Assembly: GCA_947461145.1 (NCBI GenBank)
Contig: CANHJD010000012.1
Coordinates: 1 to 32,866 of the forward strand
From: Bacteriovoracaceae bacterium
GTDB taxonomy: Bacteria; Bdellovibrionota; Bacteriovoracia; Bacteriovoracales; Bacteriovoracaceae
Reading direction: 5' to 3'
DNA: 32,866 nucleotides
Shown here: piece after piece, positions 334 through 32,696 of the stretch
Numbering within the stretch: position 1 is the stretch's first letter
How the letters are laid out: each line of letters starts with the position of its first letter
Position numbers and translations under genes: made by a program
The notes under the pieces: generated by a model
What the model saw: the letters and a program-made list of their open reading frames with translations, nothing else
Told to the model about the DNA's origin: nothing
The model's database searches: none

Positions 334-380
334 TGATAGTTATCATTTCTTACTCGTCATATTTTTTCTAAATTTTTCAC
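334..380 (+). promoter_or_regulatory. FNR-like box and -10 element of the acs operon; probable leaderless start
   Basis: Bases 334-345 read TGATAGTTATCA, a perfect inverted repeat (TGATA, GT, TATCA) matching the core of FNR/CRP-type sites (TTGAT-N4-ATCAA), with the outer bases not conserved. TAAATT at 369-374 or TCTAAA at 367-372 could be the -10 element, which puts the transcription start at about 379-381, directly on the ATG at 381. The box centre (339.5) is then about 41 bases upstream, the usual class II activator position. No Shine-Dalgarno sequence precedes the ATG (AAATTTTTCAC), which agrees with a leaderless mRNA. Box seen directly; activator identity and transcription start inferred. 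Confidence 0.5.
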
Positions 381-2093
381 ATGAAAAAGCCACCAATCAT
401 TAACTGGTCTGAGAAAGTCGCTGAGTTTGTAGAAGAGAACCAAGGATTTATTAACATCTGTTATGAAGCCCTTGATCGTCATCTCTCCACTACGATGAGA
501 GACAGGCCTGCTATTCGATATGTGGATAATTCTTGGCCAGATAAATCTGAAGCCATTCGAGATATTAGTTTTATTGAACTCGCTACAGAGACAAACCGAT
601 TTGCTCACGCCCTGAAGCGATTAGGAGTTGCAAAGGGTGAAGTACTTTTTTCTTTGTGCCCAAGAGTACCTGAATTTTATACAGTCGCCTTTGGAGCTTT
701 AAGGGCCGGTGTTGTCTTCTCCCCTCTGTTTTCGGTTTTTGGATCTGGGCCAATTCTATCGCGGATGAGGAAGGGGAAAGGCAAGGTACTCTTTACGCTT
801 GCCTCTTATTATCGAAAAAAAATACTCCCAATTAGAAGTTCACTAGTAGATCTTAAATATCTCATCCTGCTTGATGACGATGGATCACTAAATCAAATCG
901 ATGATGCGATTGATTTTCATCAATTGATGCATGATTCAGATCCCTCCTACATTATAGAAAAAACCTCTCCAACAGATCCTGCACTTTTGCATTTTACTAG
1001 TGGAACGACTGGTGAGCCCAAGGGTGCGATTCATGTCCATGAGGCAGTTCTTTATCATAAATTCTCAGGACTCATTGCTCTCGATTTAAGACCTGATGAT
1101 CTTTTTTGGTGCACGGCCGATCCGGGATGGGTCACTGGAACTTCATATGGAATTCTCTCACCAATTTGTAATGGGGTTACGCTTTTAGTGGATGGCGCTG
1201 AATTTAGCGCAGAAAGATGGTATCAAATATTGACGAAATTAAACGTCACCAACTGGTACACTGCACCGACGGCACTTCGCATGTTAATGAGGGCAGGGAG
1301 TGATCTTGCCCGTAACTACAATTTTAAAAATGTCCGTTACGGTGCAAGTGTAGGTGAGCCACTTAATCCTGAAGTCATTCATTGGGTAAAAGAAAATCTT
1401 GGGATTGAAATGCATGACAACTGGTGGCAGACAGAAACAGGTGGAATATTAATCTCAAACTACGCAAATTTTCCCGTTCGTCCTGGGGCAATGGGAGTTC
1501 CAATGACTGGTATTGAGATTGGTTTAGTAAAAAAAGTAGAAAATAATAACTTAATATTTGTTGATCGGCCCGGTGAGCAAGGTGAAATAGCTGTTAAAAA
1601 AGGGTGGCCATCAATGTTTGTTAATTATCTTGGTGATCCTGAAAAATATCAAAGATGCTTTATAGATGATTGGTACCTTTCTGGTGACTTGGCGAAATTT
1701 GATGAGGATGGGTATTACTGGTTTGTAGGGCGAAAAGATGATGTGATCAAAACATCGGGACATTTAGTTGGTCCATTTGAAATTGAAAGTCTTCTCATGG
1801 AACATGAAGCAGTTCTGGAATCAGCTGCGATCGGCATACCAGACCCTATTGCTGGAGAGTTAATTAAGGCATTTGTTGTTGTCAAAAGTGATTACAAAAA
1901 AACTGAAGAATTAAAATCAAAAATTCTCGCGTATGCGAGAGTAAGGCTTGGTGTCGCTATCGCTCCCCGAGAAATTGAATTTGTTGATAATCTCCCAAAA
2001 ACCAAATCAGGCAAAATAATGCGAAGGCTCCTTAAAGCGAGACAGCTTGGATTGCCTGAAGGTGATTTGTCGACACTTGAGCAACCACTATGA
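381..2093 (+). CDS. acsA: Acetyl-CoA synthetase (AMP-forming), AcsA type
   Basis: This 570-residue ANL-superfamily ligase converts acetate (or a short acyl acid), ATP and CoA to acyl-CoA, AMP and PPi in the cytoplasm. Visible motifs: P-loop TSGTTGEPKG at about 206-215, CTADPGWVTGTSYGI at about 244-258, WWQTETG at 348-354, YLSGD at 432-436, GRKDDVIKTSGHLVGPFE from 450, and the C-terminal PKTKSGKIMRR with catalytic Lys545, the residue that is reversibly acetylated in characterised Acs proteins. Length and the ending LPEGDLSTLE resemble Bacillus subtilis AcsA (572 aa, from memory) more than the 650-aa Acs of enterobacteria. It is the first gene of an operon: its stop overlaps the next start (ATGA at 2090-2093). 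No ribosome binding site is visible, but the N-terminus aligns with AcsA. A propionyl or other short-chain substrate is possible. Confidence 0.88.
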   Translation: MKKPPIINWSEKVAEFVEENQGFINICYEALDRHLSTTMRDRPAIRYVDNSWPDKSEAIRDISFIELATETNRFAHALKRLGVAKGEVLFSLCPRVPEFYTVAFGALRAGVVFSPLFSVFGSGPILSRMRKGKGKVLFTLASYYRKKILPIRSSLVDLKYLILLDDDGSLNQIDDAIDFHQLMHDSDPSYIIEKTSPTDPALLHFTSGTTGEPKGAIHVHEAVLYHKFSGLIALDLRPDDLFWCTADPGWVTGTSYGILSPICNGVTLLVDGAEFSAERWYQILTKLNVTNWYTAPTALRMLMRAGSDLARNYNFKNVRYGASVGEPLNPEVIHWVKENLGIEMHDNWWQTETGGILISNYANFPVRPGAMGVPMTGIEIGLVKKVENNNLIFVDRPGEQGEIAVKKGWPSMFVNYLGDPEKYQRCFIDDWYLSGDLAKFDEDGYYWFVGRKDDVIKTSGHLVGPFEIESLLMEHEAVLESAAIGIPDPIAGELIKAFVVVKSDYKKTEELKSKILAYARVRLGVAIAPREIEFVDNLPKTKSGKIMRRLLKARQLGLPEGDLSTLEQPL

Positions 2094-3055
2094 TTGATGA
2101 AGAAAAAATTTTTCTTCTGAAAAACATGTTAAGGGTCAGGCGAATGGAAGAACTCTGCGCCGAGCTCTATACAAGAGAGAAGATTAGGGGCTTTCTTCAT
2201 CTTTATATTGGTGAGGAAGCAGTGGCGACAGGAGTGTTGAGTTTAGTTGACCCTGTCGATAATGTGATGGCGACTTACCGAGAACATGCGCATGCATTAC
2301 TCAAAGGGATCAGCGCAAAATCAATCATGGCGGAAATGTTTGGAAGAGTTGATGGATGCTCTGGTGGACGTGGCGGATCCATGCATCTTTATTCCCGAGA
2401 AAAGCGTTTTTTTGGAGGAAATGCAATTGTTGCATCCGGTATACCACAGGCCGTGGGCCTTGCGTTGGCTGCACAAAGGTTAAGGGAATCTAGGAAGACG
2501 ATTTGCTTTTTTGGAGAGGGTGCCATTGCAGAAGGGGTTTTTTATGAGTCACTTAATATGGCTTCACTTTGGAAGATTCCCCTTCTATTTTGTTGTGAAA
2601 ATAATTTATATGCGATGGGAACTGGACTGGTCCGCTCTCAGGCGCAAACAGATCTCATAAAAAAGGCAACTATTCATAATATTTCTGCTGAAACAGTAAA
2701 TGGCATGGACGTGTTAGAGGTTGTAGCAAAAACTAAAAAGGCTCTTGAATATATTTCCAATGAAAAAAAACCTTATTTTTTAGAATTTAAAACCTATCGC
2801 TTCAGGCCTCATTCCATGTTTGATCCTGACCTTTATCGTGAAAAAAGTGAACTTGAGGTGTGGAAAAAGCATTGTCCAATTGATTCTTTTTCTTCCTCTC
2901 TTTTATCCACCCAAATCATTTCAGAAGATTCTCTAAAAAATTTAAAAATTGAAATTGAAAATGAAATGCAAGAGGCGATCGTCTTTGCAGAGAAGTCACT
3001 TGAGGAGTCAGTTAATGAATTAGAGCGACATGTTTACTTACAAGCTGGAATTTAA
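2090..3055 (+). CDS. 2-oxoacid (pyruvate/acetoin-type) dehydrogenase E1 component, alpha subunit
   Basis: The 321-residue thiamine-diphosphate enzyme subunit would decarboxylate a 2-oxo acid and, with E1 beta, pass the acyl group to the lipoyl arm of E2. Motifs: ATYREHAHAL at about 61-70, GGRGGSMH at about 92-99, and the ThDP/Mg motif from about 142 to Asn172, reading GEGAIAEG ... ENN. The usual motif begins GDG; here the metal-binding Asp position is Glu. The phosphorylation-loop region reads RFRPHSMFDP, with Pro where Gly is common. It starts inside the acs stop (ATGA overlap) and ends two bases before E1 beta, so translation is probably coupled. Family membership is clear. Whether the substrate is pyruvate, acetoin or a branched oxoacid is not, because these enzymes cannot be told apart by motif alone. 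Confidence 0.88.
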   Translation: MIDEEKIFLLKNMLRVRRMEELCAELYTREKIRGFLHLYIGEEAVATGVLSLVDPVDNVMATYREHAHALLKGISAKSIMAEMFGRVDGCSGGRGGSMHLYSREKRFFGGNAIVASGIPQAVGLALAAQRLRESRKTICFFGEGAIAEGVFYESLNMASLWKIPLLFCCENNLYAMGTGLVRSQAQTDLIKKATIHNISAETVNGMDVLEVVAKTKKALEYISNEKKPYFLEFKTYRFRPHSMFDPDLYREKSELEVWKKHCPIDSFSSSLLSTQIISEDSLKNLKIEIENEMQEAIVFAEKSLEESVNELERHVYLQAGI

Positions 3056-3057
3056 CT

Positions 3058-5109: not shown

Positions 5110-5364
5110 ATGAATAAAGATGAAGTGCTGAATGAACTAGCAAAAATTTTTTATCAAATAACACCTGAAATTGAATTCAAAAAAATAAATCCAACAATGC
5201 CCCTTAGGGATCAAGTTGAAATTGATTCTCTTGATTTTTATAGAATCCTTACTGAAATTCAAAAAAAATTAAATGTTTATGTTCCAGATTCTAAATTTAG
5301 AGAGTTAAAGAGTCTGGATGACTTAGCTTCTTTTATCAGTGGGCAACCCAACCACCATCTATAG
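5110..5364 (+). CDS. Acyl carrier protein linked to the E1/E2 operon
   Basis: The 84-residue protein has the phosphopantetheine attachment site EIDSLDFYRI with Ser40, and the helical pattern of carrier proteins. The start at 5110 is chosen because AGGAGG at 5101-5106 lies four bases before the ATG; an upstream in-frame ATG at 5068 would lie inside the E2 gene and add residues with no carrier-protein character. It is not the housekeeping AcpP, which is more acidic and normally sits in a fab cluster. Its place as last gene of the acs-E1-E2 operon suggests it carries or accepts an acyl group made by this complex. The last 29 bases overlap the 3' end of the convergent SDR gene. Carrier identity is firm; its role is unknown. 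Confidence 0.87.
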   Translation: MNKDEVLNELAKIFYQITPEIEFKKINPTMPLRDQVEIDSLDFYRILTEIQKKLNVYVPDSKFRELKSLDDLASFISGQPNHHL

Positions 5365-6085
5365 TGATTGACTGTCCAGTGATGTAAGAAGATTTCTCTG
5401 AGCAAAGCCAAATCACTGCATCGGCAATTTCTTCGGGTCTACCTAGTCGTCCCATTGGAGTCTGATTGGCCAAGTTGACTATAGTTTCCTTTCCTAATCT
5501 TTCGAGCATAGGCGTTTTGATGGGGCCTGGGCAAACAGCATTTATTCTTATTTTTTGCTTTGCATTTTCAAGGGCGGCAGTTTGAGTAAGACCAATCACA
5601 CCATGTTTACTAGCGACATAGGCGGGTGAGCCTTCAAAACCTACTAGCCCTGCAATAGATGAACAATTAACAATTGCTCCATGTCCATTTTTTATCATCG
5701 CCGGTATTTGATATTTCATACATAACCACACACCTCTAAGATTTATATCAATAGTCCGACTCCAATTTTCGAAACTACATTGAGTTGTTGGAGAGACTAC
5801 TCCTTCTACTCCGGCGTTATTAAAAGCCAAATGGAGAGCACCAAATTTTTCAATAGTTTTTGAGACAAGATTTTTAACTTCATCATCTAAAGAGACATCA
5901 CATTTTATAAAAAATGCGGATCCTTTTTTTTCTTCGATTAATTTAACCGTCTCAATTCCTTCCTCCTCCTGTAAGTCACTCACTACGACTTTTGCACCAT
6001 CTTGGGCGAAAGCTAGTGCCGTGGCCCGGCCAATACCTGAACCTGCACCAGTAATGATGATGACCTTATTTTCAAACTGTCCCAT
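5336..6085 (-). CDS. SDR-family NAD(P)-dependent dehydrogenase/reductase
   Basis: The 249-residue classical short-chain dehydrogenase has the cofactor motif TGAGSGIG at 12-19, NNAG at 89-92 and the catalytic tetrad Asn115, Ser143, Tyr156 and Lys160 (YVASK). It has PGPIKTPM after the active site and the conserved C-terminal GQSITIDGGW. Asp37 after beta-strand 2 (VVVSDL) suggests NAD(H) rather than NADP(H). The substrate is not predictable: FabG-like, 3-hydroxyacyl or sugar/alcohol dehydrogenases share all these motifs. A GGAGG precedes the ATG at 6085 by seven bases. It converges on the ACP gene with a 29-base overlap and diverges from the GH16 gene across a region that holds an FNR-like palindrome (6137-6148), so it may share regulation with the acs operon. 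Confidence 0.9.
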   Translation of the reverse strand: MGQFENKVIIITGAGSGIGRATALAFAQDGAKVVVSDLQEEEGIETVKLIEEKKGSAFFIKCDVSLDDEVKNLVSKTIEKFGALHLAFNNAGVEGVVSPTTQCSFENWSRTIDINLRGVWLCMKYQIPAMIKNGHGAIVNCSSIAGLVGFEGSPAYVASKHGVIGLTQTAALENAKQKIRINAVCPGPIKTPMLERLGKETIVNLANQTPMGRLGRPEEIADAVIWLCSEKSSYITGQSITIDGGWVAH

Positions 6086-6136: not shown

Positions 6137-6148
6137 TGATTCAAATCA
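6137..6148. promoter_or_regulatory. FNR-like palindrome between SDR and GH16 genes
   Basis: TGATTCAAATCA lies within a perfect 6+2+6 inverted repeat (CTGATT, CA, AATCAG at 6136-6149). It matches the FNR/Dnr core TGAT-N4-ATCA. For the minus-strand SDR gene, a -10-like TTAAAT or TAAATA at about 6107-6113 puts the transcription start near 6100, with the box centred near -41 (class II). For the plus-strand GH16 gene no convincing -10 at that distance is seen, although TATACC at 6153-6158 lies close by. Direct observation of the palindrome; regulator inferred. Confidence 0.5.
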
Positions 6149-6166: not shown

Positions 6167-7771
6167 ATGATGAGTTACTTTCCGTTTTATATTTGCCTAA
6201 AAAAAGCCGACGAGAATATTGTGAAAAGTCATTTGACCATTCTTATACTTTTGGCGCTTTATATTTTCCCGTTTCATATCAGGGAGAAAGCTCCCTCTCG
6301 TACTCCAGCGGCCGAGGATGTTACCAAGTATGGTTGGAAGGTCTCATTTGTAGATGAGTTTGAGGATAGGGATCGGGCGATTTCCCAAGGAACATCTGCG
6401 AGCTGCTTTGATATGGCACCCCAATGCTTAGTTCAGTATTGGACTCAAAAAGAATGTAAGCCTCAGTATCATGGACAACTCAAAAATTTGAACAAATGCA
6501 ATTGGCGAGTGTATGACATGTATAACTGGATGGACTTTGATGCTCCAGTTGGACAAGGAGTCAATGCCTTGAATCCTTCACAGGTTGAAGTTAAAAATGG
6601 CTTTCTCACCCTTTACGCCTCAAGAAGTAGCACTCCAACAAACTCGTTGAATTGCAAAAATAAGATCTTTGATTTTGAGGCGAATATGGAGAATTACTCC
6701 AAGGATTGTCCCTTCATTTCGGGTGCCATCAACAGTGCGACTCACTGGAACAATGGAAAAAAAGTTGGATTCTCCCAAGAATATGGTCGCTTTGAAGTGA
6801 TGGCTATTTTACCTTATGGGCCAGGAACTTGGCCTGCTCATTGGCTTCTGCCAGACGAGGAGCCAGATACAAATTCCTCAGGTAAGCGATGTGGATGGCC
6901 AGTCAGTGGTGAAATCGACATCATGGAGATGTGGGCCGATAGTGATGGAGTTCAATATAAAGGTGGCCTCATTACTGGTGATTGTGAAAGAAATATAGCC
7001 GGTAATAAAGGTGGGTATGGAAAGTCAGATAGTATTTCAAAAAGTTTCCATAAATATATAGTTGAGTGGACGCCAAATTATGTAAAGTTTATCTTTGATG
7101 ATGAAGAAATTGAAACAGTTTATAAAGATGAGCCTATAAGAAGTAAATATCACAATGGCGATGGAACAAATTATTCTGCAGATGAGTTAGATGAACGATT
7201 TAAGCATCCAGCAAGAATTCCCAATCATCCTTTTTATTGGATACTTAATACTACTATCGAGCCAGCGACTGGAAAGAAAAAAAAATATCGACCAGATCCT
7301 GAAAATTTTCAAACGACGAAGCATATTATCGATTACGTAAAAACCTATGAGCGCTGTACGGCAGCTGATGATCCAAAGAAATGTATTAAATTTAAAGATA
7401 AGGACACTGTCTATCGCTACAATTCTAATAGGGGTGAAACAGCCTCGATGGAGATAAATGTCTACCCAAGTCCTCAATTAAAGGGGAGAGACATGACCAC
7501 AAGAATTACATCCAATCAGTATTGCAAAAATGTAAAATTTACGATTGTGAATATGGCCGGTCAAATAATTGGTGTAGATAAAGTTGGTCCTGATAATGAA
7601 GGTCGTACTTATCTCTACCAAGGCCCCATGGAAGAAAATGAAAGTAAGGAAATTGTTTTTAGAACGAATAATCTTGCCGCTGGCCTTTACCTCGCAACGG
7701 CTTGGTTCGACGGTTGTGGTGACAATGGTAAAGGTGAAGGAAACCATGTGTTTAAGATGGTTGTCATTTAA
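6167..7771 (+). CDS. Secreted GH16-family beta-glucanase with a sorting-domain-like C-terminus
   Basis: The 534-residue protein has one hydrophobic segment at about 22-37, probably a signal peptide or anchor. A GTG at 6221 (residue 19) would give a more normal signal peptide and is a plausible true start; neither start has a strong ribosome binding site. The GH16 jelly-roll domain spans about 55-395, with the catalytic motif GEIDIMEMW: Glu249 nucleophile, Asp251 and Glu254 acid/base. YGRFEVMAILPYGPGTWPAHWLLP just before it is typical of the family, which cleaves beta-1,3 or mixed-linkage glucans, agarose or carrageenan. Several cysteines suggest disulfides and export. Residues 428-534 form a separate domain (INVYPSP ... 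FTIVNMAGQII ... NNLAAGLYLA ... FKMVVI) that looks like a type IX secretion sorting domain. It converges on the glucan synthase gene with overlapping stops. Confidence 0.85.
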   Translation: MMSYFPFYICLKKADENIVKSHLTILILLALYIFPFHIREKAPSRTPAAEDVTKYGWKVSFVDEFEDRDRAISQGTSASCFDMAPQCLVQYWTQKECKPQYHGQLKNLNKCNWRVYDMYNWMDFDAPVGQGVNALNPSQVEVKNGFLTLYASRSSTPTNSLNCKNKIFDFEANMENYSKDCPFISGAINSATHWNNGKKVGFSQEYGRFEVMAILPYGPGTWPAHWLLPDEEPDTNSSGKRCGWPVSGEIDIMEMWADSDGVQYKGGLITGDCERNIAGNKGGYGKSDSISKSFHKYIVEWTPNYVKFIFDDEEIETVYKDEPIRSKYHNGDGTNYSADELDERFKHPARIPNHPFYWILNTTIEPATGKKKKYRPDPENFQTTKHIIDYVKTYERCTAADDPKKCIKFKDKDTVYRYNSNRGETASMEINVYPSPQLKGRDMTTRITSNQYCKNVKFTIVNMAGQIIGVDKVGPDNEGRTYLYQGPMEENESKEIVFRTNNLAAGLYLATAWFDGCGDNGKGEGNHVFKMVVI

Positions 7772-10700
7772 CTCGTAATATTTATATTCACAAAGTGATG
7801 TCCTTCGTCTTCTAGAATAGAAATTTCATTATTTTGTATTATTACACCATCAATTTCTATGCTGTGTAGCGGTTGGTGATTAAAAATATTAATTTCATAA
7901 GTTGTCTTCTCTCTACGATAAATAAGCCTAAATTCATTCCACTCTTTAGGAATTCTCGGATTAATACTCATAATGTGATTTTTTATTTTCAGGCCTATGA
8001 TACTTTCCAGTACGGCCCTATACATCCAGCTTGCAGAGCCAGTATACCAACTCCAACCACCACGGCCAATATTAGGTTTAATGCCATAGATATCTGCTGC
8101 AATAACATAGGGTTCGACTTTATATTTTTGAGATTGCTCTTTATCGAGGGCGTGCTCTATTGGGTTAAGAAGATTCAGCAGTTCATAGGCCTTTTCATTT
8201 TCCCCAAGTTGGGCAAAGGCCATCATCGCCCAGATTGCAGCATGTGTATATTGTCCGCCATTTTCTCTTATTCCTGGCAAGTAACCTTTAATATAGCCAG
8301 GGTCTTGTTCACTTTTATCGAAAGGGGGAGTAAAAAGTTTGATGAGTTTATTCTCTTTATCAAAAAGAAGTTCATAAACTGAATCCATCGCTTTTTTTGA
8401 TCTTTCTCTCTCTCCAAGACCTGAGATTACTGACCAACTTTGTGCAATAGAATCAATCTTACATTCTTTACTATTGAATGAACCCATCGGTTCACCATTA
8501 TCATAGTAGGCGCGCAGGTACCATTCCCCATCCCAAGCGGTATTTTCAATTGATGTCTTTAATTTATCTATGTGATTTGAGTAAATGTTATTTTTTAGTT
8601 CATCCTTCATGAGCTTACAAATTGGTAAGAATCCTTTAATCGTTGAAGCAAGAAACCATGCCATCCACACACTTTCACCGTTTCCTAGATGCCCAACTCG
8701 ATTCATCCCATCATTCCAATCACCAGATCCAAATAACGGGAGTCCATGGACTCCGACTCTTAGACTTCTATCAATCGCTCTCGTACAATGTTCATAAAGA
8801 GTCCCTTTGAATGTTGTTGATATTGGTTGAGTGTAGGATTCATCCTGACCTTCATCCAGAGAAGGTGCTTCAATATATGAAATATTTTCAGATAAAATAG
8901 AATCATCACCAGTCGTCTCAATATAATGACTAACAATATAGGGAAGCCAGAGTAGGTCATCTGAAAAGCGCGTACGCACTCCTCGTCCTGTTGGTGGATG
9001 CCACCAGTGCTGTATATCTCCCTCTGGAAATTGTCTCGATGCTGCTAACAAAATATGAGCTCTCGTTAATTCAGGCCGTGAATGAATAAATGCCGCGACA
9101 TCTTGAAGTTGGTCTCTAAAACCAAAGGCTCCTCCAGATTGGTAGAGAGCAGACCTTGCAAAATAGCGACAGGAGATAGACTGATAAAGAAGCCATCTAT
9201 TCATTAGGATATTAAGTGATTCATTTGGTGTTTTGATCTCAATAGCATGAACAGATTTATCCCAATACTCTTTTATTAAAAACAATTCTTCACTAATTGT
9301 TGAATCTTTTCTTAAAGCCTCTAGTATCATCTTTATTTCATCATGAGATTTCGCTTCACCCAAAAAAAGACATATTTCCTTCTCTTGAAATGGCTCCAAC
9401 TTAATAATTGTTTGTAGAGCTGCACAAGGATCAAGTGAGGCACCGGACCTGTTTGAAAGATTCTTACGTTTCATTGAGGCGGGTTTATCCATACTTCCAG
9501 CACGCCCTAAAAACTCACGCCTATCACAGGTGTAACTTGTCACTTTTTCATTCATAGCAAAAAACGACAGATGCTGGGCAAATTCATTATTATAGTTATT
9601 TTTTGCTACGATATATTCCTCTTGAGCGTTCCAGTCTGTAACGATAGTAGAAGCTGAAAGTGAATGAATTGTACCAAGGACAAGCTCAATATAAGAAGTA
9701 AGGGAAAGTCTTCTAGGTCTTCCTGTTTCATTTTTAAGTACTAATTTCCAAACTTTTACATTTCTCTTAAGACAAGCAAATACTGTTAGAAAATGATGAA
9801 TTCCATGCGAGCTATGTTGAAAAGAAGTGTAGCCCAGACCATGCGAGATAAGATAGTCATCTTGTCCTCGAATAGGCAGTGGAGTTGGTGTCCAGAATGA
9901 TCCAGTTTCTTCATCTCGAAGATAAATTCCTTCCGTGCTTGAGTCTGAAACCGGATCATTGGACCAAGAGGTGATTCTATTCTCTCGACTATTTTCTGCC
10001 CAAGTGTGTCCCTGACCAGATTCAGAAATAATGAAACCAAATTCATGATTATTGGCGATAACATTAATCCAGGGACATGGTGTCCATTCTTTATCCTTTA
10101 AATGAATGACGTATTCAGAGCCATCCAGTGTAAATCCACCATAACCATTAAAAAACTTTAGATCAGGCCTTTCTAGTTCCACTTTGTGATAACTAATCTT
10201 ATGCCTTGTAGGAGAGAAATGAGATGGAAGTTCTTTATCAAAAAATCGCCGTTGGAGCTGTTCCTCTAATGATCCCTTTTCTGCTACAAACTGTACTCGA
10301 GCAATTGTTTTTAGAAGAATTAAATCTGATTCTTGAATGAGATCGGCTCTTCTTAGAAAGATCCCCCCTGACTTATCCATAACTGCGTGTCCACCACTTA
10401 TAAGAATTTGCCTATTGATTTCATCATGTAAAGTCTGGAGGTAGCTTGTATTGTGTTCATTAAGAATGACTAAGTCAGATTTAATTCCCTTTAGCTTAAG
10501 ATATTCATGAGCGTGAAGGAGGTCTCTTACAAAAGCAACATCTTTATCTTGGTGAACTCTTACAAGAATTATGGGGTTATCGCCACTAATTCCATGGGCC
10601 CAAAGTGATGACTGTTGCTTAGTATTTTCTGTTGTGATCTTGCTGCTGGAGCGTAAATAAGGGGAGAGATAAATAATTCTTCCGGCTAAACGCTGATATG

Positions 10701-13700
10701 TATGGGCTTTTTCCATTGAAATATTTAAATGTCGTAGCATAATTTGGGATTTAACCCAACCAAGACTAATTTCTCTCATGAATAGGTTATGATCATGATA
10801 TTTTTGTGCTAACACTAAGGCTTCATGCCTTGACGAGGCGACTCCTGTGACAAAGATCATTTGGACTGTTTCATTCTTACGGAGATGAATTTTTTTTCTT
10901 AAAGAAAAAATTGGATCCAAGACTGCACCAGTCTTTTTGGAAAGCCAATCCTTCTCGGAAATCGCAATTGGGTTTTGAATCCCTCTTCCTCTCCCCAAGA
11001 AAACAGCTCTATCTGTTTCGTAATTGATATCATCTAAGGCAAGTCCGTTTAATGTTAATAAGTGAAATGCCCATAGCTCTTTTTCAGATGTTGATTTAGG
11101 TCTTCTTTCCGCAAGAAGGGTATTAAATTGTGGAATAAATTCAGTCTGGATAAAAAGTTTGCTAAAGGCTGGATGGGAACTGTCATCTGAAGCCTTCGCA
11201 AGAGCAATTTCCATGTAGCTAGTAACTTCAATCTCGACATGTTCTTCTGATTTATTTGTAAGAGATAAGCGTCTGAGTTCAACATTATCATCAGATGAAA
11301 CAATAATCTCCGTATTTGTGATAATGTTATTATCTTCACGATAAATATCTATTTTATCCTCTGCGAAGATTGCTTCGTATTTTTTTGGTCTGATACCTAT
11401 CGGTTGAAATCCTGCTGACCAAGTCTTTGAAGTTTTGGTGTTTTTCAAAAAATAATATTGTCCCCAATGATCCATCGTTGGATCTTCATTCCATCTTAGG
11501 ACCATTTTATCATTAATTTTTGAATACCCTGAACCCGCTGTTGTGACCAAAACGGAATACTGCCCGTTAGATAGAACATGGCAGACAGGTGTCGGTAAAT
11601 TTGGATCAGTGTAAACACGTGTATGATGATTTTCAGTCGCTCGAACAAAGCTTTCAATATGCGTATCTTCTGCTTTAGGTTTAATGATTTCAGTTACAAC
11701 GGGGATTCGCTCTTGTAATAACAGATGAATCGCTTGGTTTCTTGCATCGGAATGAAATCTTTCTTGTAAAATAGAATTATTAAGTAAGTTGTTTAAGGCT
11801 GAAAGACTCATCCCCTGATGGTGGGCCATATAGGACTGGAGAATCACAAATTTCTTATTTTTTGGAATTCTTTCCAACGTGTAATCAATTGATTCATAAA
11901 AACCAAAATCACCTAATGCATTATTTCTTTCAAGTTCCTCAAGATTCTGAAGCGCTTCTTTTGGTCTTATCATTGCTGCGAGGATGGTTGAGTAGGGCGA
12001 AACCACCAATTCATCTCTTAGACCTCTTTTTAATCCAAGTCCAGGGACACCAAAAGGGCCATATTGATAATTAAATTGCAAGTCCCTTGCATTATAGCCG
12101 GCCTCTGAAATACCCCAAGGTATTTGTCTCTGCACCCCATAATCGATTTGTCTTGTCACAACTGATTCATAACTCTGATCAAGAAGTGTTTCCTCATACC
12201 TCTTCATCACGAGCAAAGGCATGAGATATTCAAACATTGTTGCACTCCAGGAAATCAGAGTTCGATTACCTGCAGCACTTGTTAATTGTCGTCCCAGTCT
12301 GAACCAATGCTCATCAGGAATATCCCCCTTAGAAATTGCAAAATAACTCGCAAGTCTTGATTCAGAGGCGAGCAGGTCATAAAAGGATTCATCTCTTCTC
12401 GATTCTGAGACGTTATGTCCAATGGCAAAAATCTTTCTCTTTTCATCGTAAAGAAATTTAAAATCCATGCTGTGTGCCAAGTCATGCGCCTGATAGGCGA
12501 GTGTCTTGAGTTTAAGTCTCGACCTTGAGTGATTAAGGGATTCATCATATTCATATGAGGCAATTTGGTTTTCAATCGACCTAATCCATCGTGAAGTTTT
12601 TTCTGCCCACGATTTGTTTTGTTCTTCAGTAATATCTGCCAAAAGCTTTTTTGCTGTGGCGATTTCAGAAAGGATCATTTTAAATTGGATTTCAAAGATA
12701 TTGTTTGAAATGCTTTTAACAATTTTTAAAAGTCGTTTTAATGACCCACCTCTCAAAATATGGGGAACGCTTTCCATTTCATGAAGGTATTCTTCTAAGA
12801 TAATAAAGCTATCCCTTAATCCAATACGTGCATTTTCATTCAGATATTCGGACTTCGCCAGCTGTAGGCATGCCTGCTTAAAAGTGATTAAATGGCCTGC
12901 TAGATTTCCTGAGTCAACGGTTGATATATATCTTGGACTTAACGGTTCAAGATTTTGAGTATTATACCAGTTGTAAAAGTGGCCATTAAGTTTCTCAAGT
13001 TTATGAATGGATTCAAAAATTCGTTCTGATTTTTCGATGAAGTCCCCAAAACCAATATAACCAAGATCATATGCAGATAAATTAGATAGTATCTGAAGTC
13101 CAATATTTGTAGGAGACGTTCTATGTGCCACGACAGGTTTGGGATCCTCTTGAAAATTGTCTGGAGCAAGCCAGTTTTCCTCTGGTACTGCAAACGTTTC
13201 AAAAAAATGCCAAGTTAATCTTGCATATCGACGAAAGGATCTGACTTGATTTTTTGTTAATGGCTCTTCAGGGTAGGCGATTGGTTTTTCTATGCCTTTA
13301 GCGATGTAGGGACCAATAAACCAACAAGATAAGAAAGGTAACGAAATCAAAAATGAATCCGCTCTGAATTTTAAGACTACTATGGCCATAATGATTGAAA
13401 AAAAGGTTCCAAAAGTGAAGAGAACCTTCCATCTTCTTTTTATTCTTCCCGTTTTCTGGACCTGCGAAAAAGTGACCCATTCGAGTAGGTTTTTTCGGCT
13501 CACGAAGACTCGCCAGATTGACCTTAAAATTGCATCCGTTTGAGCGAATGCTACGTCAGGCAAGAAAACAACCATAAGAAAGACTTGTTCAATTCGATTC
13601 CTGTTGAGACGGATATTGTTCCTTATATGTTCCTGCCATGGGATGTTTTTTTTCTTTATCAAGTCTTGAAACATGGAGGCAAATATCGGACAGCTCATCG

Positions 13701-16245
13701 AAAAGACAATTATTGATGTCCAAATCAAAGGAGATCCTGGAAGAACAAGCCAAGAAAGAGATAACCAGAGGAGTGTTGAAGGGGCAAGGATGCTTCTTCT
13801 TAGATTATCAAAGATCTTCCAGCGACCGACATAAGGAAGATCATTCTTTACCTTTACAACCTTATCATTCGTAACTTTGGCAAAAAGCCAAGGTAGTAAT
13901 TGCCAATCACCTCTCGTCCAACGATGCATTCTTTTAATAAAACTTTCAACTCCTGATGGATAGTCATCAATGAGTTCTATGTCTGTTGCAAGGCCAACTC
14001 GTGTGAAGCATCCTTCAAACAGATCATGACTGAGAATTGAGTTCTCTGGGACTCTACCTTGAAGAACTGCGATAAAGACATCTACATCATAAAGACCCTT
14101 TCCGGTAAAAGTACCCTCCCCAAAAAGATCTTGATAAACATCTGATACTGCAGTTGTATAGGGATCAATACCGGTATTGCCGGAGAAAATTTGGGCAAAT
14201 CTCGTTTGTGCTGCTGAGACTAATGAGACACTTATTCTCGGCTGTATTATTCCGTAACCCTGAATGACCTTAGATTTTTTTTGATTAAGCACGGGACGAT
14301 TTAGTGGATGGGTTATGGTTCCGATGAGGCGGCGGGCAGACTGAAGTGGAAGTTGAGTGTCTGCATCAAGAGTAATGACATATTTAATACTTGTAAGAAA
14401 AGATGGATCTGTATTTGATGGTAGATAGCTTGTTGTTTTTGATCCTCTCAAAAAATAATTAAACTCTTCTATCTTTCCTCTTTTTCTTTCCCGGCCAAGC
14501 CATTTTTGATCATATCTGCTATATTTTCGCATTCGAGTGAAGTGATAGAATTTTGGCATCCCTGACGTGGGATAGCGTTTATTAAGTTCGGCAATTTCAT
14601 GATTTACAAGTTCAAGAAACTTTCCATCCGATTCCATTTTTTCACTCGGGGAGTCTGTAAAATCACCAAGTAATGAGAAGAAGATTTGTTCGTCTTGGTT
14701 TGCAAGATAATGGACCTCTAATGAGGAAACTAATTCTTTTATTGTTTTTTGATCATTGTAGAGACAGGGAATTACAACCATTGTTTTATATTTTTCTGGA
14801 ACTCCTTGCTTATACTCCATTTTCGGAAGCCTCTTGGGCTTTCTTATGATCGTAATGACATAGTTTTGCAATCCAATGGCGAGTTCACTAAGTGGAATAA
14901 CCAAAAGGAAGCTCAATAGGAGACCTATTGGACTTCTTATCTCTTCAATTTCAAAGCTTGAAAGGATTAACGAGTAGTAGGTAAATACCTGTACTAGAAA
15001 TGGAATAAAGTAGAAAAAAATCGGATATTTATCTGCCATATAGGTTAGAGATTCATTGAAAGATCTTTTATATAAAATTGATCTTTCAAAGCTCCTCAGT
15101 TTTTCTTTTAGAAGAATATTGCCGATATGGATTTTTTCTTCATTTGCTTTGCTTAGAATTTTTTCAGCAATTTGAATTTCACTAAAGTTGCTTCTCCTCG
15201 ACAAGTTTTCAATTCTTTTCCGATATGAGTCTTTGGTTTCAATGTCCATCGCGGAGTATTCATCGGTCGGGTCCTTCCTTAGTATTGGATCTACAAGGTT
15301 GACTCTTTCAAAGAAATCATGCCAGTCAATTGTTGAAAAAAGTCTCATGCTTGTAATAATGTTACTTATTGAGACTTGGTCAATTGCCTGCCTGTGATGC
15401 TCCTTATCAATTAGTGCTTTCGTATTTGAATTACATCGTACCAAAGTTTCTTCAAGCCACTCCATAGGTCGGAATAAATCTGGATCTTGATCTCTAAGTC
15501 TTTGTATGAGCTGGACAATAAATGATCTATTAAACTTTTTTGAATCACAGAAACAATTATTAAATAATCTAATGACTTCATCTGCAGGATTTTCATGACG
15601 ACCAAGGACCTCTAATACTTCATCAGCAAAAATATTTGCTTTTATCCTTTCTTTTTTTGTTTCGAGGATCGTTTTTACCAAGGGAAGGAGTGCTTCCATT
15701 AGAGAAATTTTTAAGGTAATCGGAACTGCCCATAACTCGCCAATTGAGAGTGGAGCTTTGGCCTGAAAGCCTTCAATGAATTTGACAACTGATTCGCTAT
15801 CTATTTTTGAATTTGATCTAGCAACTAAAATACGGGCAAGAACCAGAACCCTAGGATAGCCTTTCCTCACTCCTTTTGAAATCTTAGGTAACTCATTATA
15901 GTAATTCTTTGGTAGGTCACGTTTAATATTTCTTAACTGCTCTTCAATGATATGGTAGTTATCCAAAAACCATTCCGCCGCAGGTGTTAGAAAAAGGGAG
16001 CCAATATCCTGAGTCAATATCTTATAGGATTCAAGTAGCTCCAAACCAATATTCTCTATTTCAAATATTAAGTTTTTTGATTTATTAACTTTGGGAGTTA
16101 CTTCAATTTCGGATGTAATTTCAGACTCAATTTTTTCATATTCTAATTCCTCAAATTGGTGAGATTCAAAAAAAGACTCTTTATTTAAATTTTCTGTAAT
16201 ATTCTCATAATCAATTTCTTGAAATTCTTTTGAGGATATGAGCAT
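7768..16245 (-). CDS. ndvB: Cyclic beta-1,2-glucan synthase, NdvB/ChvB type (GT84 + GH94)
   Basis: This 2825-residue inner-membrane enzyme matches NdvB/ChvB in length (about 2830-2870 aa from memory) and domain order. Residues 1-400 hold the NdvB N-terminal region (LTPAAEWFLDNYHIIEEQL). Membrane helices lie at about 405-475. The glycosyltransferase core has DADTQLP at 627 and RMHRWTRGDWQ from 772, with HDLFEG between. More helices follow at about 815-870 and 935-985. A glycoamylase-like region lies at about 1370-1480 (MAHHQGMS). Two GH94 N-terminal-type domains start near 1550 and 2035, and the GH94 catalytic domain at about 2300-2800 has GDWND at 2508-2512. The protein self-primes, elongates beta-1,2-glucan from UDP-glucose, trims it by phosphorolysis and cyclises it. 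AAGGA precedes the ATG. No NdvA exporter gene is nearby. Actual linkage and cyclisation are untested. Confidence 0.9.
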   Translation of the reverse strand: MLISSKEFQEIDYENITENLNKESFFESHQFEELEYEKIESEITSEIEVTPKVNKSKNLIFEIENIGLELLESYKILTQDIGSLFLTPAAEWFLDNYHIIEEQLRNIKRDLPKNYYNELPKISKGVRKGYPRVLVLARILVARSNSKIDSESVVKFIEGFQAKAPLSIGELWAVPITLKISLMEALLPLVKTILETKKERIKANIFADEVLEVLGRHENPADEVIRLFNNCFCDSKKFNRSFIVQLIQRLRDQDPDLFRPMEWLEETLVRCNSNTKALIDKEHHRQAIDQVSISNIITSMRLFSTIDWHDFFERVNLVDPILRKDPTDEYSAMDIETKDSYRKRIENLSRRSNFSEIQIAEKILSKANEEKIHIGNILLKEKLRSFERSILYKRSFNESLTYMADKYPIFFYFIPFLVQVFTYYSLILSSFEIEEIRSPIGLLLSFLLVIPLSELAIGLQNYVITIIRKPKRLPKMEYKQGVPEKYKTMVVIPCLYNDQKTIKELVSSLEVHYLANQDEQIFFSLLGDFTDSPSEKMESDGKFLELVNHEIAELNKRYPTSGMPKFYHFTRMRKYSRYDQKWLGRERKRGKIEEFNYFLRGSKTTSYLPSNTDPSFLTSIKYVITLDADTQLPLQSARRLIGTITHPLNRPVLNQKKSKVIQGYGIIQPRISVSLVSAAQTRFAQIFSGNTGIDPYTTAVSDVYQDLFGEGTFTGKGLYDVDVFIAVLQGRVPENSILSHDLFEGCFTRVGLATDIELIDDYPSGVESFIKRMHRWTRGDWQLLPWLFAKVTNDKVVKVKNDLPYVGRWKIFDNLRRSILAPSTLLWLSLSWLVLPGSPLIWTSIIVFSMSCPIFASMFQDLIKKKNIPWQEHIRNNIRLNRNRIEQVFLMVVFLPDVAFAQTDAILRSIWRVFVSRKNLLEWVTFSQVQKTGRIKRRWKVLFTFGTFFSIIMAIVVLKFRADSFLISLPFLSCWFIGPYIAKGIEKPIAYPEEPLTKNQVRSFRRYARLTWHFFETFAVPEENWLAPDNFQEDPKPVVAHRTSPTNIGLQILSNLSAYDLGYIGFGDFIEKSERIFESIHKLEKLNGHFYNWYNTQNLEPLSPRYISTVDSGNLAGHLITFKQACLQLAKSEYLNENARIGLRDSFIILEEYLHEMESVPHILRGGSLKRLLKIVKSISNNIFEIQFKMILSEIATAKKLLADITEEQNKSWAEKTSRWIRSIENQIASYEYDESLNHSRSRLKLKTLAYQAHDLAHSMDFKFLYDEKRKIFAIGHNVSESRRDESFYDLLASESRLASYFAISKGDIPDEHWFRLGRQLTSAAGNRTLISWSATMFEYLMPLLVMKRYEETLLDQSYESVVTRQIDYGVQRQIPWGISEAGYNARDLQFNYQYGPFGVPGLGLKRGLRDELVVSPYSTILAAMIRPKEALQNLEELERNNALGDFGFYESIDYTLERIPKNKKFVILQSYMAHHQGMSLSALNNLLNNSILQERFHSDARNQAIHLLLQERIPVVTEIIKPKAEDTHIESFVRATENHHTRVYTDPNLPTPVCHVLSNGQYSVLVTTAGSGYSKINDKMVLRWNEDPTMDHWGQYYFLKNTKTSKTWSAGFQPIGIRPKKYEAIFAEDKIDIYREDNNIITNTEIIVSSDDNVELRRLSLTNKSEEHVEIEVTSYMEIALAKASDDSSHPAFSKLFIQTEFIPQFNTLLAERRPKSTSEKELWAFHLLTLNGLALDDINYETDRAVFLGRGRGIQNPIAISEKDWLSKKTGAVLDPIFSLRKKIHLRKNETVQMIFVTGVASSRHEALVLAQKYHDHNLFMREISLGWVKSQIMLRHLNISMEKAHTYQRLAGRIIYLSPYLRSSSKITTENTKQQSSLWAHGISGDNPIILVRVHQDKDVAFVRDLLHAHEYLKLKGIKSDLVILNEHNTSYLQTLHDEINRQILISGGHAVMDKSGGIFLRRADLIQESDLILLKTIARVQFVAEKGSLEEQLQRRFFDKELPSHFSPTRHKISYHKVELERPDLKFFNGYGGFTLDGSEYVIHLKDKEWTPCPWINVIANNHEFGFIISESGQGHTWAENSRENRITSWSNDPVSDSSTEGIYLRDEETGSFWTPTPLPIRGQDDYLISHGLGYTSFQHSSHGIHHFLTVFACLKRNVKVWKLVLKNETGRPRRLSLTSYIELVLGTIHSLSASTIVTDWNAQEEYIVAKNNYNNEFAQHLSFFAMNEKVTSYTCDRREFLGRAGSMDKPASMKRKNLSNRSGASLDPCAALQTIIKLEPFQEKEICLFLGEAKSHDEIKMILEALRKDSTISEELFLIKEYWDKSVHAIEIKTPNESLNILMNRWLLYQSISCRYFARSALYQSGGAFGFRDQLQDVAAFIHSRPELTRAHILLAASRQFPEGDIQHWWHPPTGRGVRTRFSDDLLWLPYIVSHYIETTGDDSILSENISYIEAPSLDEGQDESYTQPISTTFKGTLYEHCTRAIDRSLRVGVHGLPLFGSGDWNDGMNRVGHLGNGESVWMAWFLASTIKGFLPICKLMKDELKNNIYSNHIDKLKTSIENTAWDGEWYLRAYYDNGEPMGSFNSKECKIDSIAQSWSVISGLGERERSKKAMDSVYELLFDKENKLIKLFTPPFDKSEQDPGYIKGYLPGIRENGGQYTHAAIWAMMAFAQLGENEKAYELLNLLNPIEHALDKEQSQKYKVEPYVIAADIYGIKPNIGRGGWSWYTGSASWMYRAVLESIIGLKIKNHIMSINPRIPKEWNEFRLIYRREKTTYEINIFNHQPLHSIEIDGVIIQNNEISILEDEGHHFVNINITS

Positions 16246-17475: not shown

Positions 17476-17487
17476 TGATATCAATCA
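17476..17487. promoter_or_regulatory. FNR-like box between the Hsp20 operon and the 54-aa gene
   Basis: TGATATCAATCA matches the core TGAT-N4-ATCA found upstream of three other genes here. It is centred 93 bases before the Hsp20 ATG. A -10-like TAAACT at 17533-17538 would place it near -61 (class I spacing) for Hsp20. On the minus strand TATAAG at 17444-17449 would place it near -44 for the small basic gene. The box also contains the simpler palindrome TGATATCA. TATAAAAT at 17500-17507 is another possible -10. Which direction is served is undecided. Confidence 0.42.
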
Positions 17488-17574
17488 TTTTTGAATCCCT
17501 ATAAAATCATGCCTGCTAAATTTTTTTCAGACTAAACTTCCATCAAGACGTAGACGTAAAATCAGGAGGTCTGT

Positions 17575-18039
17575 ATGTCTTTTTTTGGGAATCAACTTAC
17601 ATCTTTCGGAAATCAAAATCCTTTCTCATTATGGCGGAGAGACATGAATGATCTTTTTGATCGTTTCAATCGCGATGTTGAATTTGGACCTGGAGTTATA
17701 GGTAATATCACTCCTAATGTTGAAATGCTTGAAAATGATAAGTCCTATCATCTTTCAGTTGAGGTTCCAGGTATGAAAGAGAGTGATTTAAATATTTCAC
17801 TCAAAGAAAATCAGCTTATCATTGAGGGGACTAGAAAAGCTCCTGCCCAAGAAAAGGCGGATGAGTTCTATTCTACGGAATTCTCTTATGGGGATATCTA
17901 CCGTGTTATAACTCTAAATGATGAGGTCAACGCCAATACGGTTAAAGCAACTTGCCATGATGGTCTTCTTTATATTGTGTTAGATAAGCTTGAGCCGAGT
18001 ACACACAAAGCTAAAAAGATTCCTATTTTAAAGTCTTAG
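17575..18039 (+). CDS. Small heat shock protein, Hsp20/alpha-crystallin family
   Basis: The 154-residue cytoplasmic holdase has a short N-terminal arm with a Phe/Asn-rich start and the DMNDLFDRF helix. The alpha-crystallin domain covers about 45-140 (PNVEMLENDKSYHLSVEVPG, GLLYIVLDK), and the C-terminal IPI motif at 149-151 docks neighbouring dimers in the oligomer. Such proteins bind unfolding proteins without ATP. AGGAGG lies seven bases before the ATG. It is the first gene of a stress operon whose other members are a universal stress protein, a phosphoribosyltransferase, a CBS-pair protein and a hydrolase. A stable hairpin right after its stop may separate or dampen downstream expression. 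An FNR-like box upstream suggests control by oxygen or redox rather than by heat alone. Confidence 0.93.
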   Translation: MSFFGNQLTSFGNQNPFSLWRRDMNDLFDRFNRDVEFGPGVIGNITPNVEMLENDKSYHLSVEVPGMKESDLNISLKENQLIIEGTRKAPAQEKADEFYSTEFSYGDIYRVITLNDEVNANTVKATCHDGLLYIVLDKLEPSTHKAKKIPILKS

Positions 18040-30650: not shown

Positions 30651-30656
30651 ATATGC

Positions 30657-31496
30657 TTACCTCGTCAAAAATTCAATCTCGGACATGAGTATTTGGACTT
30701 CTCGTTCAGTCATACCAAGTCGATATAAGAGTTCCTCTTGATGCAAAAGTTCTTTTGCCAGAAGAAAACCACGGCCAATAAGATTATTCTTCATAAACCG
30801 ATTTATACGACGCAGGCTGGTGATTGGGTAGAGCCCCAATTCTTTAATATGATCTAAAAAGGATTTGTCTGAGGGGGCATTTACGCCTAGAAGCTGGAGG
30901 CCACTTCCTTTGGCATAGACAATAGCATCGAGACTGAAAGAGGTATTACTGGCGAGGTAAAATTGATTGAGATTTTTTCCTTCAGGTCCTTCTTTGAGGT
31001 CATCCCATCTAGCTTTAACATAGAGGGCAATTTTGATATCGTTCTTGATTCCCTGCCTGTTATGAAACTTACACTCAGCATATATTTTCGATGAACCCTT
31101 TTGTCCAACGACATCCACCTCATGCTTAACCAATCGACCTTGAATGATCTGACATGTATTTGTCTTAAATCCAATAGCGTTGAAATATTTAGCAACAAAA
31201 AGTTCGAAATTATGTCCTGTAGGTCCTAGATCAAAGAGCGCCCTTTTCAGGGAGTACTGAGCAGCAGCGATTCGTGAATTCTTTTCTACAAGGCTTAGAG
31301 CTTTACGATAAATATCTCGAGTCTTGAAACCCTCATTTAGTTCATGGGCAACATTATCGACAATATTTTCACAAGTTTTTGGAGAGAGCCCAGTTCGTTG
31401 AATTGATGTATATAACTTTTTTTTTGAAAACGGCTCGGGAAAACCGCTCGCTTTGATGATGTTGAAATTATTTTTTACTCTGTTTTGTCTTTTCAT
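30657..31496 (-). CDS. ATP-cone plus Mrr-like PD-(D/E)XK nuclease
   Basis: The 279-residue protein has two parts. Residues about 10-92 form an ATP-cone (IIKASGFPEPFSKKKLYTSI ... IYRKALSLVEKNSRIAAAQYSLKRAL), the nucleotide-sensing module of NrdR and ribonucleotide reductase. Residues about 95-200 form a restriction-endonuclease-like core (GHNFELFVAKYFNAIGF, HEVDVV with Asp128, and YAECKFH with Glu141 and Lys143), that is Asp, then Glu-x-Lys, a complete PD-(D/E)XK site with Glu98 as the helix residue. A C-terminal helical tail follows. This architecture suggests a DNA or RNA nuclease gated by ATP/dATP. It overlaps the mini-cNMP gene at its 5' end (29 bases) and lies six bases before the beta-CASP gene. 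Function unknown. Confidence 0.82.
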   Translation of the reverse strand: MKRQNRVKNNFNIIKASGFPEPFSKKKLYTSIQRTGLSPKTCENIVDNVAHELNEGFKTRDIYRKALSLVEKNSRIAAAQYSLKRALFDLGPTGHNFELFVAKYFNAIGFKTNTCQIIQGRLVKHEVDVVGQKGSSKIYAECKFHNRQGIKNDIKIALYVKARWDDLKEGPEGKNLNQFYLASNTSFSLDAIVYAKGSGLQLLGVNAPSDKSFLDHIKELGLYPITSLRRINRFMKNNLIGRGFLLAKELLHQEELLYRLGMTEREVQILMSEIEFLTR

Positions 31497-31851
31497 CTTC
31501 TTTAATATTACTAATCAGTCCAAATAATTTTGATTCTTTATTCTTTATACACTCAAGTACATCGGAACGACTAATCAAAATAATTTTTGAATCCTTCTTC
31601 ACCTTACAGCCAAACTTAACGGGTTCTTGATTAATAATATGATGAATACCTAGCAGATAACCAGAAGTAATTTTTTCCAGGATTTTTGATTTCTTAGTCA
31701 GTTCAATCTCTCCATCAATAAGCGCAATTCCTGCATTGGGAATTTGTTTCTCATAGACTAAGTCGCAGTCATTATTGATAGAAAGAATTTCGTGAGTTTC
31801 TTTAAGTGTCTTTATTGCTTTTTCTGACAACTTATTGATTTTTTTCTTCAT
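31468..31851 (-). CDS. Short cNMP-binding-fold (Crp-like) protein without DNA-binding domain
   Basis: The 127-residue protein resembles a reduced cyclic-nucleotide-binding beta-barrel: EKQIPNAGIALIDGEIELTKKSKILEKITSGYLLGIHHIINQEP corresponds to 'G..a.....l..G.....' with a roll, and VKFGCKVKKDSKIILISRSDVLECI to the last strands. The N-terminal helix is lysine-rich and the C-terminus ends in a charged tail (KEDEKTKQSKK). No HTH follows, and the phosphate-binding cassette is not clearly kept, so it may be a partner or sensor instead of a full regulator. It lies 61 bases after the crp/fnr stop and overlaps the ATP-cone gene, so translation is likely coupled. Recognition is by pattern only. Confidence 0.6.
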   Translation of the reverse strand: MKKKINKLSEKAIKTLKETHEILSINNDCDLVYEKQIPNAGIALIDGEIELTKKSKILEKITSGYLLGIHHIINQEPVKFGCKVKKDSKIILISRSDVLECIKNKESKLFGLISNIKEDEKTKQSKK

Positions 31852-31912: not shown

Positions 31913-32626
31913 TCAGAAATTAAGATTGGCAAATTCAAGTAGGCGATCTTCGTCGACGACAAAAATTGTCTTACCTTCTTGCTCAATGAGGCCTTCCTCT
32001 TTGAATTCGGATATAAACCTGATGACTGTTTCATTCGCAGTTCCCACCATTGATGCCATCTCTTCACGAGTGAGTTTAATATCAAGGCGCCAACGATTTC
32101 CTTCCTTAATTCCGTAGGTCTTTTTGAGCATAAGGAGAAGCTCGGCTAGTCTTTCCCGAACGTTCTTCTGAGAGAGGGCAGCACTTCTTGCCTCTGCAGA
32201 CCCCATTTCTTTACTTAGTTTTTGGATGAGATTAAGGGCAATAGTGGGTTCTTTTTGTACTGCCTTATAGATAAATTTTTTATCAAGAAAGCAAATTGCG
32301 GAATCCTCTATCACCGTGGCAGTGGCAGTGTAGTTTTCTTCGCTGAATAGGCTACGGTGGCCAAGAACATCTCCAGGGCCTGCAATGCGAATGATGGATT
32401 CTTTTCCATCGTTGCCTAGTTTAGAAACTTTGATTTTGCCGCTACTTATACAGTAAAGACCAAATGGAGGGTTCCCTTGGAAAAAGATTGTCTGACCTTT
32501 TTTATAGAGGTTCATTACCTTATTGTGGTTTACATCAGTGAGAGCAGCGTGCTCAAGTTGACAGAAAATACCCTTATCTTTTGAAACACAATGATCGCAA
32601 TCAACATTTTTAAAAGTGGTCGTCAT
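31913..32626 (-). CDS. Crp/Fnr-family regulator with FNR-like cysteines
   Basis: The 237-residue transcription factor has an N-terminal cysteine patch (Cys10, Cys13, Cys22: DCDHCVSKDKGIFCQL), a cNMP-type barrel at about 30-120 (KKGQTIFFQGNPPFGLYCISSGKIKVSK ... GPGDVLGHRSLF), the dimer helix at about 123-165 and the HTH at about 185-212 (TREEMASMVGTANETVIRF). Cys112 lies near the place of E. coli FNR Cys122, so a [4Fe-4S] cluster sensing O2 or NO is plausible. The recognition helix keeps Glu199 and Arg203 of the FNR E-x2-SR motif but has Ile202 instead of Ser. GAGG precedes the ATG. It probably controls boxes of TGAT-N4-(A/G)TCA type, one of which is upstream of its own gene. Confidence 0.9.
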   Translation of the reverse strand: MTTTFKNVDCDHCVSKDKGIFCQLEHAALTDVNHNKVMNLYKKGQTIFFQGNPPFGLYCISSGKIKVSKLGNDGKESIIRIAGPGDVLGHRSLFSEENYTATATVIEDSAICFLDKKFIYKAVQKEPTIALNLIQKLSKEMGSAEARSAALSQKNVRERLAELLLMLKKTYGIKEGNRWRLDIKLTREEMASMVGTANETVIRFISEFKEEGLIEQEGKTIFVVDEDRLLEFANLNF

Positions 32627-32656
32627 ATGATCCTCTATCTTCTAAATACCTTTATT

Positions 32657-32696
32657 TTTATATCACAATTCAGTCAAAAAAAACTGATCCAGGTCA
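32657..32696 (-). promoter_or_regulatory. Promoter of the Crp/Fnr gene with an FNR/Dnr-like box
   Basis: On the minus strand TGACCTGGATCA (32685-32696) matches TGAC-N4-ATCA, an Anr/Dnr-type site; TATAAA at 32657-32662 is a good -10 element. A transcription start near 32650 puts the box centre about 40 bases upstream, class II spacing. This suggests autoregulation. A weak inverted repeat (TCAGT ... ACTGA, 32670-32687) overlaps the box. The gap 32627-32726 otherwise contains no gene. Confidence 0.5.

Follow-up and report, generated by a model that had tools for sequence, protein, structure and literature searches.

A conserved operator and a probable FNR-type low-oxygen regulon of shifted specificity in Bacteriovoracaceae

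A Crp/Fnr gene and four intergenic boxes

Contig CANHJD010000012.1 of the Bacteriovoracaceae bacterium assembly GCA_947461145.1 (2.65 Mb in 212 contigs), referred to below as the window and analysed over its 32,866 nucleotides, carries near its end a gene for a Crp/Fnr-type regulator, preceded by an inverted-repeat box that is the main subject of this report:

31913..32626, minus strand: crp/fnr gene (P0001), 237 residues, with a cNMP-binding-type sensor fold and a Crp-type helix-turn-helix (HTH)
32657..32665, minus strand: extended -10 element, TGATATAAA; box centred about 40.5 bp before the inferred start
32685..32696, minus strand: predicted crp/fnr operator, TGACCTGGATCA on the minus strand, with A/T tracts on both sides

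The initial annotation had proposed that four intergenic boxes with the core TGAT-N4-(A/G)TCA form a redox regulon run by this gene. All four were recovered exactly where claimed, as TGATAGTTATCA at 334-345, TGATTCAAATCA at 6137-6148, TGATATCAATCA at 17476-17487, and TGATCCAGGTCA at 32685-32696. The expectation of about 0.05 intergenic copies of TGAT-N4-ATCA was likewise reproduced (0.055 over 1,557 intergenic start positions, against three found), and the corresponding Poisson P(>=3) of 2.7e-5 is optimistic because the motif was chosen after reading the sequence. Copies inside genes, left uncounted by that annotation, make up four of the seven exact copies in the whole window (911, 22386, 26761, and 32592); shuffled sequences yield 1.39 on average, and 0 of 100 shuffles reach seven. 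Across the assembly there are 139 copies, or about 1.7 per window length. A 1.134 Mb sample of the same genome (43% of the assembly, loci L077-L136 plus the window) contains eight intergenic copies where 3.08 are expected, and since three of these eight fall in the window, the intergenic excess is local. Among 256 inverted repeats of the same form, TGAT ranked sixth in the intergenic DNA of this sample, while 57 of 65 sample copies were coding (51.6 expected) and were set aside. Whether the boxes are functional cannot be told from this one stretch; the decision rests on comparison with related genomes.

Conservation of the regulator promoter

Of 28 homologues with 53% identity or more (selected from 76 loci, with two second copies included), 22 have a box 48-87 bp upstream of the regulator start; in an unselected set with one match per family genome, 20 of 28 members have it at a distance of 40-100 bp. 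Gene starts were taken from a simple custom gene caller or from tblastn ends. In 18 of 21 relatives the box is followed by TGnTA at offset 19 (12 loci), 20 (5), or 21 (1), and at offsets 8-18 or 22-27 no TGnTA was found in any of the 21. A matrix built from 20 distinct sites in 21 of 24 relatives (the other three had no site in range), from which the window's own site was excluded, gave that site a score of 28.2, the best in the 1.13 Mb sample, the next best being 17.0. Of 23 FNR-activated promoters of Escherichia coli whose starts are known, 19 are reported to have sites centred at -41.5 +/- 4 (PMC3688515). As judged from its extended -10 element, the regulator box is at a class II activator position, at about -41, and its retention in relatives indicates that it is a conserved self-control switch of an FNR-like gene.

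The initial annotation had placed boxes near -41 at three sites. This is the case at crp/fnr, and also at the SDR gene, where TGTTTAAAT occurs at the same offset, but at acs the start would fall at the ATG.

Operator consensus

The same core dominates the intergenic DNA of regulator loci. TGAT-N4-ATCA occurs 17 times (1.51 expected) at 12 Bacteriovoracaceae-type loci and 29 times (2.43 expected) at 25 Bacteroidetes loci, ranking first of 256 inverted repeats in both, and five times (0.76 expected) at nine other loci, where it ranks second of 256. The 4-base spacer stands out as well: for spacers of 0 to 10 bases the counts are 1, 0, 1, 0, 17, 0, 1, 1, 0, 6, 0 at Bacteriovoracaceae-type loci and 0, 1, 0, 1, 29, 2, 3, 5, 1, 4, 1 at Bacteroidetes loci, so that 17 and 29 compare with next highest values of 6 and 5. 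Core and spacer are those of the FNR/ANR box TTGAT-N4-ATCAA; the outer T of that box is nearly absent, being found at 1 of 108 half-sites. In these 54 sites the outer base is C (54 half-sites), A (42), or G (11), whereas 71 of 200 outer bases around coding copies are T. The earlier statement that the outer bases are not conserved thus fails at the conserved sites, where C or A occupies 96 of 108 half-sites.

An FNR-type regulator

P0001 has the domain architecture of the CRP/FNR family (cNMP-binding fold and Crp HTH), its closest named relatives come from Bacteriovoracaceae assemblies, and the structure search covered 50 listed matches. It carries cysteines in the arrangement C10-X2-C13-X8-C22 plus a distal C112, and all four are kept in close homologues. 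On alignment, three correspond to C20, C23, and C122 of FNR, and the third of the N-terminal group is shifted by three residues from C29; C-X2-C-X8-C is present in 35 of 65 aligned homologues and paralogues, P0001 included. Its recognition helix reads E199-T-V-I202-R203 (ET-x-IR), and the alignment bears out the earlier observation that Ile takes the place of FNR Ser212.

P0001 lacks the C-X2-C-X5-C spacing of E. coli FNR and, because its own spacing is C-X2-C-X8-C, was classified as FNR-type rather than as FNR itself. We also rejected an assignment to FNR or FnrL proper, as the NCBIfam models stay under their cut-offs (FnrL 90.2 bits against 300; Fnr 84.7 against 228). Of the label "FNR/Dnr-like", the first half stands as a type; a Dnr identity is less likely and was rejected, because DNR proteins are described as lacking the cysteine motif (PMC1274295) and P0001 has it. 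We infer that P0001 is an FNR-type regulator whose four cysteines are predicted to be able to bind a cluster.

Several observations concern the neighbourhood and paralogues of this protein. A 127-residue protein encoded after the regulator (window 31468-31851) has a weak cNMP-binding match (PF00027, under cut-off), and at locus L033 a 40%-identical counterpart follows the regulator with a box of its own (L033 10710). Paralogues at L087 10980-11681 (contig C4 of the same genome) and L268 1908-2627 have the N-terminal cysteines C-X-C-X2-C and C-X3-C-X2-C, possibly other cluster-binding layouts.

Low-oxygen targets in relatives

Putative targets among relatives of the same genus are ccoI, a cation-ATPase gene in the cbb3 oxidase cluster (PF12156, found in 13 of 26 genomes), and hemN. 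A box lies within 200 bp before ccoI at all 13 genus loci (11 at -46 to -87; matrix scores 4.2-24.5) and before hemN at all nine (eight at -47/-48; scores 10.0-24.0), compared with a background of 20 of 981 genes of the window's genome and 12 of 500 leader genes. NATAAT stands at a fixed offset of 23 in seven of nine hemN loci. An FNR/Anr-like regulon would be expected to have boxes with class II spacing in front of both hemN and cbb3 genes, and this arrangement is seen here; in Pseudomonas, Anr boxes are reported at hemN and ccoN (PMC6588701). The Usp family, drawn from the genome's own cco cluster, has a box in 16 of 27 distinct promoters; the raw count of 18 of 30 was corrected by dropping L299, which had no upstream DNA (its match lay downstream), and L314 and L315, which repeat the promoters of L291 and L308. 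Outer bases for Usp were read at 13 of the 30 loci.

The regulator also co-occurs across the 26 genomes with hemN (9/0 vs 8/9, Fisher P 0.009) and with cbb3 (14/2 vs 3/7, P 0.0085), where regulator-positive denotes about 65% identity or more and G021 was taken as cbb3-positive through its ccoI match. Matrix, thresholds, and target families were picked during the analysis. Boxes had been noticed before the ccoI and Usp families were taken up, and the box of the genome's own hemN was likewise known before that gene was tested, so that only the further promoters of relatives count as tests.

In the genome under study, boxes precede hemN (contig C148, score 22.8) and the Usp gene inside the cco cluster (C79, 16.9), which supports the regulator itself, hemN, and this Usp gene as putative own-genome members. 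The ccoI promoter is unreadable here because the gene runs off its contig. Boxes also precede a 4-hydroxyphenylpyruvate dioxygenase-like gene (C49; assigned from its translation) and an M10-type peptidase gene (C11). In Bacteroidetes relatives they stand before genes for hemerythrin, a NarK-like MFS protein (our reading of an MFS_1 match), MoeA, and DoxX, and before a fused ccoNO gene.

Taken together, these patterns probably reflect a small low-oxygen regulon of FNR type whose specificity has shifted and most of whose members would lie outside the window. The crp/fnr gene would encode an FNR-type oxygen sensor whose four conserved cysteines would coordinate an oxygen-labile iron-sulphur cluster; the dimer is expected to bind [C/A]TGAY-N4-RTCA[G/T] when oxygen is low. 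The regulator would act on its own promoter from the class II box, and its putative targets in the genus would include ccoI (cbb3 oxidase assembly), hemN (oxygen-independent haem synthesis), and a Usp gene.

A separate observation is that box and -10-like element lie very near the ATG at hemN loci L276 and L278-L286 and at acs (window 334-381). The hemN mRNA, and perhaps that of acs, would then be nearly leaderless.

Alternative explanations

Several results weigh against a regulon of this kind. Six of the 28 regulator promoters have no box, and only nine of 25 Bacteroidetes relatives have one within 250 bp of the regulator, further boxes in that set preceding neighbouring genes. TGnTA at offset 20-21 is present at nine of 13 ccoI loci and at none of the nine hemN loci. 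G020 (59% complete) and G023 both keep the ccoI box, and no close regulator orthologue was found in either, which is why paralogues probably read the same box. Relatives of one genus are not independent, and as they share history the counts given above overstate independence, with the near-identical locus pairs L007/L008 and L035/L036 and other G003/G011 loci counted separately. Genome-wide enrichment, proposed as a check by the initial annotation, was not borne out in the 43% sample: outside the window there are only five intergenic copies of the core against about three expected, no clear excess, and a longer flanked pattern gave eight sites (four inside predicted genes) against seven for its reversed control. 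Within the window, the held-out matrix scores of the boxes at 334, 6137, and 17476 are 0.1, 6.3, and -3.6, near the bottom of the ccoI and hemN ranges or beneath them.

These low scores raise the question of whether the boxes at acs and SDR match the motif by chance in the vicinity of a single genuine operator; we see about equal chances either way. The SDR box is absent at comparable places in 11 relatives, an upstream box at acs is found in one of six, and four more exact copies lie inside genes of the window. Pulling the other way are the intergenic surplus in the window (three against 0.055), the TGTTTAAAT element at the right offset from the SDR box, and a distance from acs box to ATG equal to that of hemN boxes; absence at acs is, moreover, weak evidence, because in some relatives the upstream DNA resembles another coding gene. 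A division of labour between two Crp/Fnr regulators is also conceivable, although we give it slightly less than an even chance: P0001 would control itself, hemN, ccoI, and Usp through [C/A]TGAY-N4-RTCA, and a paralogue would control Hsp20 and acs, tolerating an outer T. Outer T occupies 3 of 12 positions in six Hsp20 boxes against 1 of 108 in the other sets, G019 has boxes at the promoters of a 38%-identical Crp/Fnr gene, Hsp20, and acs on one contig (with SDR there too), and the genome under study has a second intact Crp/Fnr gene adjoining two Usp genes. However, the promoter of that second gene has no intergenic box, few Hsp20 boxes were compared, and the recognition helices of both paralogues are likewise ET-x-IR. 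That the regulator instead senses nitric oxide, redox state, or a nucleotide, as DNR or Crp do, seems unlikely, given the four cysteines kept in close homologues, the description of DNR and HcpR as lacking them (PMC1274295), and targets that are low-oxygen genes.

The FNR-type low-oxygen regulon is our preferred reading, and the redox regulon originally proposed is partly supported. FNR-like cysteines, the best match at the regulator's own promoter, and low-oxygen targets in relatives speak for that proposal; the other three window boxes score low, SDR is not conserved, and the Hsp20 regulator may be a paralogue.

Relation to known systems

The predicted system resembles FNR of E. coli and Anr of Pseudomonas in its sensor fold, four cysteines, E-x-x-x-R recognition helix, N4 spacer, class II sites, and hemN and cbb3 targets (for Anr, as reported in PMC6588701). 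Unlike FNR, it combines C-X2-C-X8-C (rather than C-X2-C-X5-C) with Ile in place of Ser212 and a [C/A]TGAY rather than TTGAT half-site. DNR and HcpR, nitric-oxide-type members of the same family, differ in lacking FNR-type cysteines; the DNR box shares the TGAT-N4-ATCA core, but its reported consensus keeps the outer T, CTTGATnnnnATCAAG (PMC1274295). A sequence match to a Porphyromonas gingivalis Crp/Fnr protein (PDB 2gau) spans residues 42-233 only and leaves the N-terminal cysteines outside.

Tentatively, and with a little less than even confidence, P0001 may belong to an undescribed oxygen-sensor clade common to Bacteriovoracaceae and Bacteroidota, which would be marked by C-X2-C-X8-C and ET-x-IR, read [C/A]TGAY-N4-RTCA while avoiding the classical T, and run the low-oxygen switch of a lineage described for the most part as aerobic predators. 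Bdellovibrio and Bacteriovorax, described members of Bdellovibrionota, are called aerobic in PMC13200544, which also reports oxidases of the cbb3 and bd types in assemblies of magnetotactic Bdellovibrionota and infers that respiration there takes place at low oxygen. To this reported respiration, an FNR-type regulon that is conserved and includes cbb3 and HemN would add a regulator, and it supplies a defined operator and target list. The titles and abstracts listed in literature searches yielded no description of an FNR regulon in Bdellovibrionota, which does not establish its absence from print. If real, the pairing of an altered outer base with Ile for Ser212 would clearly illustrate how a CRP/FNR protein and its site evolve together, which has been described at other positions of the family (PMC1274295).

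The other three boxes of the window

The remaining boxes stand next to the following genes:

334..345, plus strand: acs box, upstream of the acs-pyruvate dehydrogenase operon; candidate
381..2093, plus strand: acetate--CoA ligase gene (acs), NF003313 over cut-off; first gene of the operon
5336..6085, minus strand: SDR oxidoreductase gene, NF004818 over cut-off
6137..6148, minus strand: SDR/GH16 box, between the SDR and GH16 genes, with TGTTTAAAT at offset 20
17476..17487, plus strand: Hsp20 box, upstream of an Hsp20-Usp-PRTase-CBS operon
17575..18039, plus strand: Hsp20 gene, PF00011 over cut-off

Comparison of orthologous promoters, which the initial annotation had suggested, upheld the crp/fnr box, gave partial conservation for Hsp20 and a single case in six for acs, and did not support SDR. 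At -94 to -101, a box is present in seven of the 13 nearest Hsp20 loci (L137-L149) including the window's own, hence in six of 12 relatives. The Hsp20 operon may belong to the regulon, and because its outer bases differ from those of the other targets, a second Crp/Fnr paralogue may be its regulator. The acs box starts 47 bp before the ATG and has CTAAAT at offset 22, a layout close to that of hemN; three pyruvate-dehydrogenase-type genes (PF00676, PF02779/PF02780, and PF00198) follow acs. Usable DNA upstream of SDR was available for 11 relatives, and none of them carried a box at a corresponding position; one other box stands at -154. We rejected the SDR box as a conserved site, and its membership in the regulon is weakly supported.

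Further observations were made around these genes. A second box-like site, TGACTTAGCTCA at 17452-17463, is situated 24 bp farther upstream than the Hsp20 box and, with a score of 14.6, outranks it. Six Hsp20 promoters (window 17452-17520; L138-L140, L145, and L146) have in common a GGAGG ribosome-binding site and an RTCAT element, noticed by eye, that follows the box by about 18-19 bases. At G019 locus L268 (G019:C59, 1908-13093), Hsp20, SDR, acs, and a 38%-identical Crp/Fnr gene occur together and three promoters have boxes, as if the set were a cassette with its own regulator. Elsewhere in the window, a 2,825-residue protein (7768-16245) combines GH94 and glucoamylase-type domains and is presumably cyclic beta-glucan synthase-like. 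A different inverted repeat, CTCC-N4-GGAG, is strongly over-represented in the intergenic DNA of the own-genome sample, with 12 copies against 1.06 expected.

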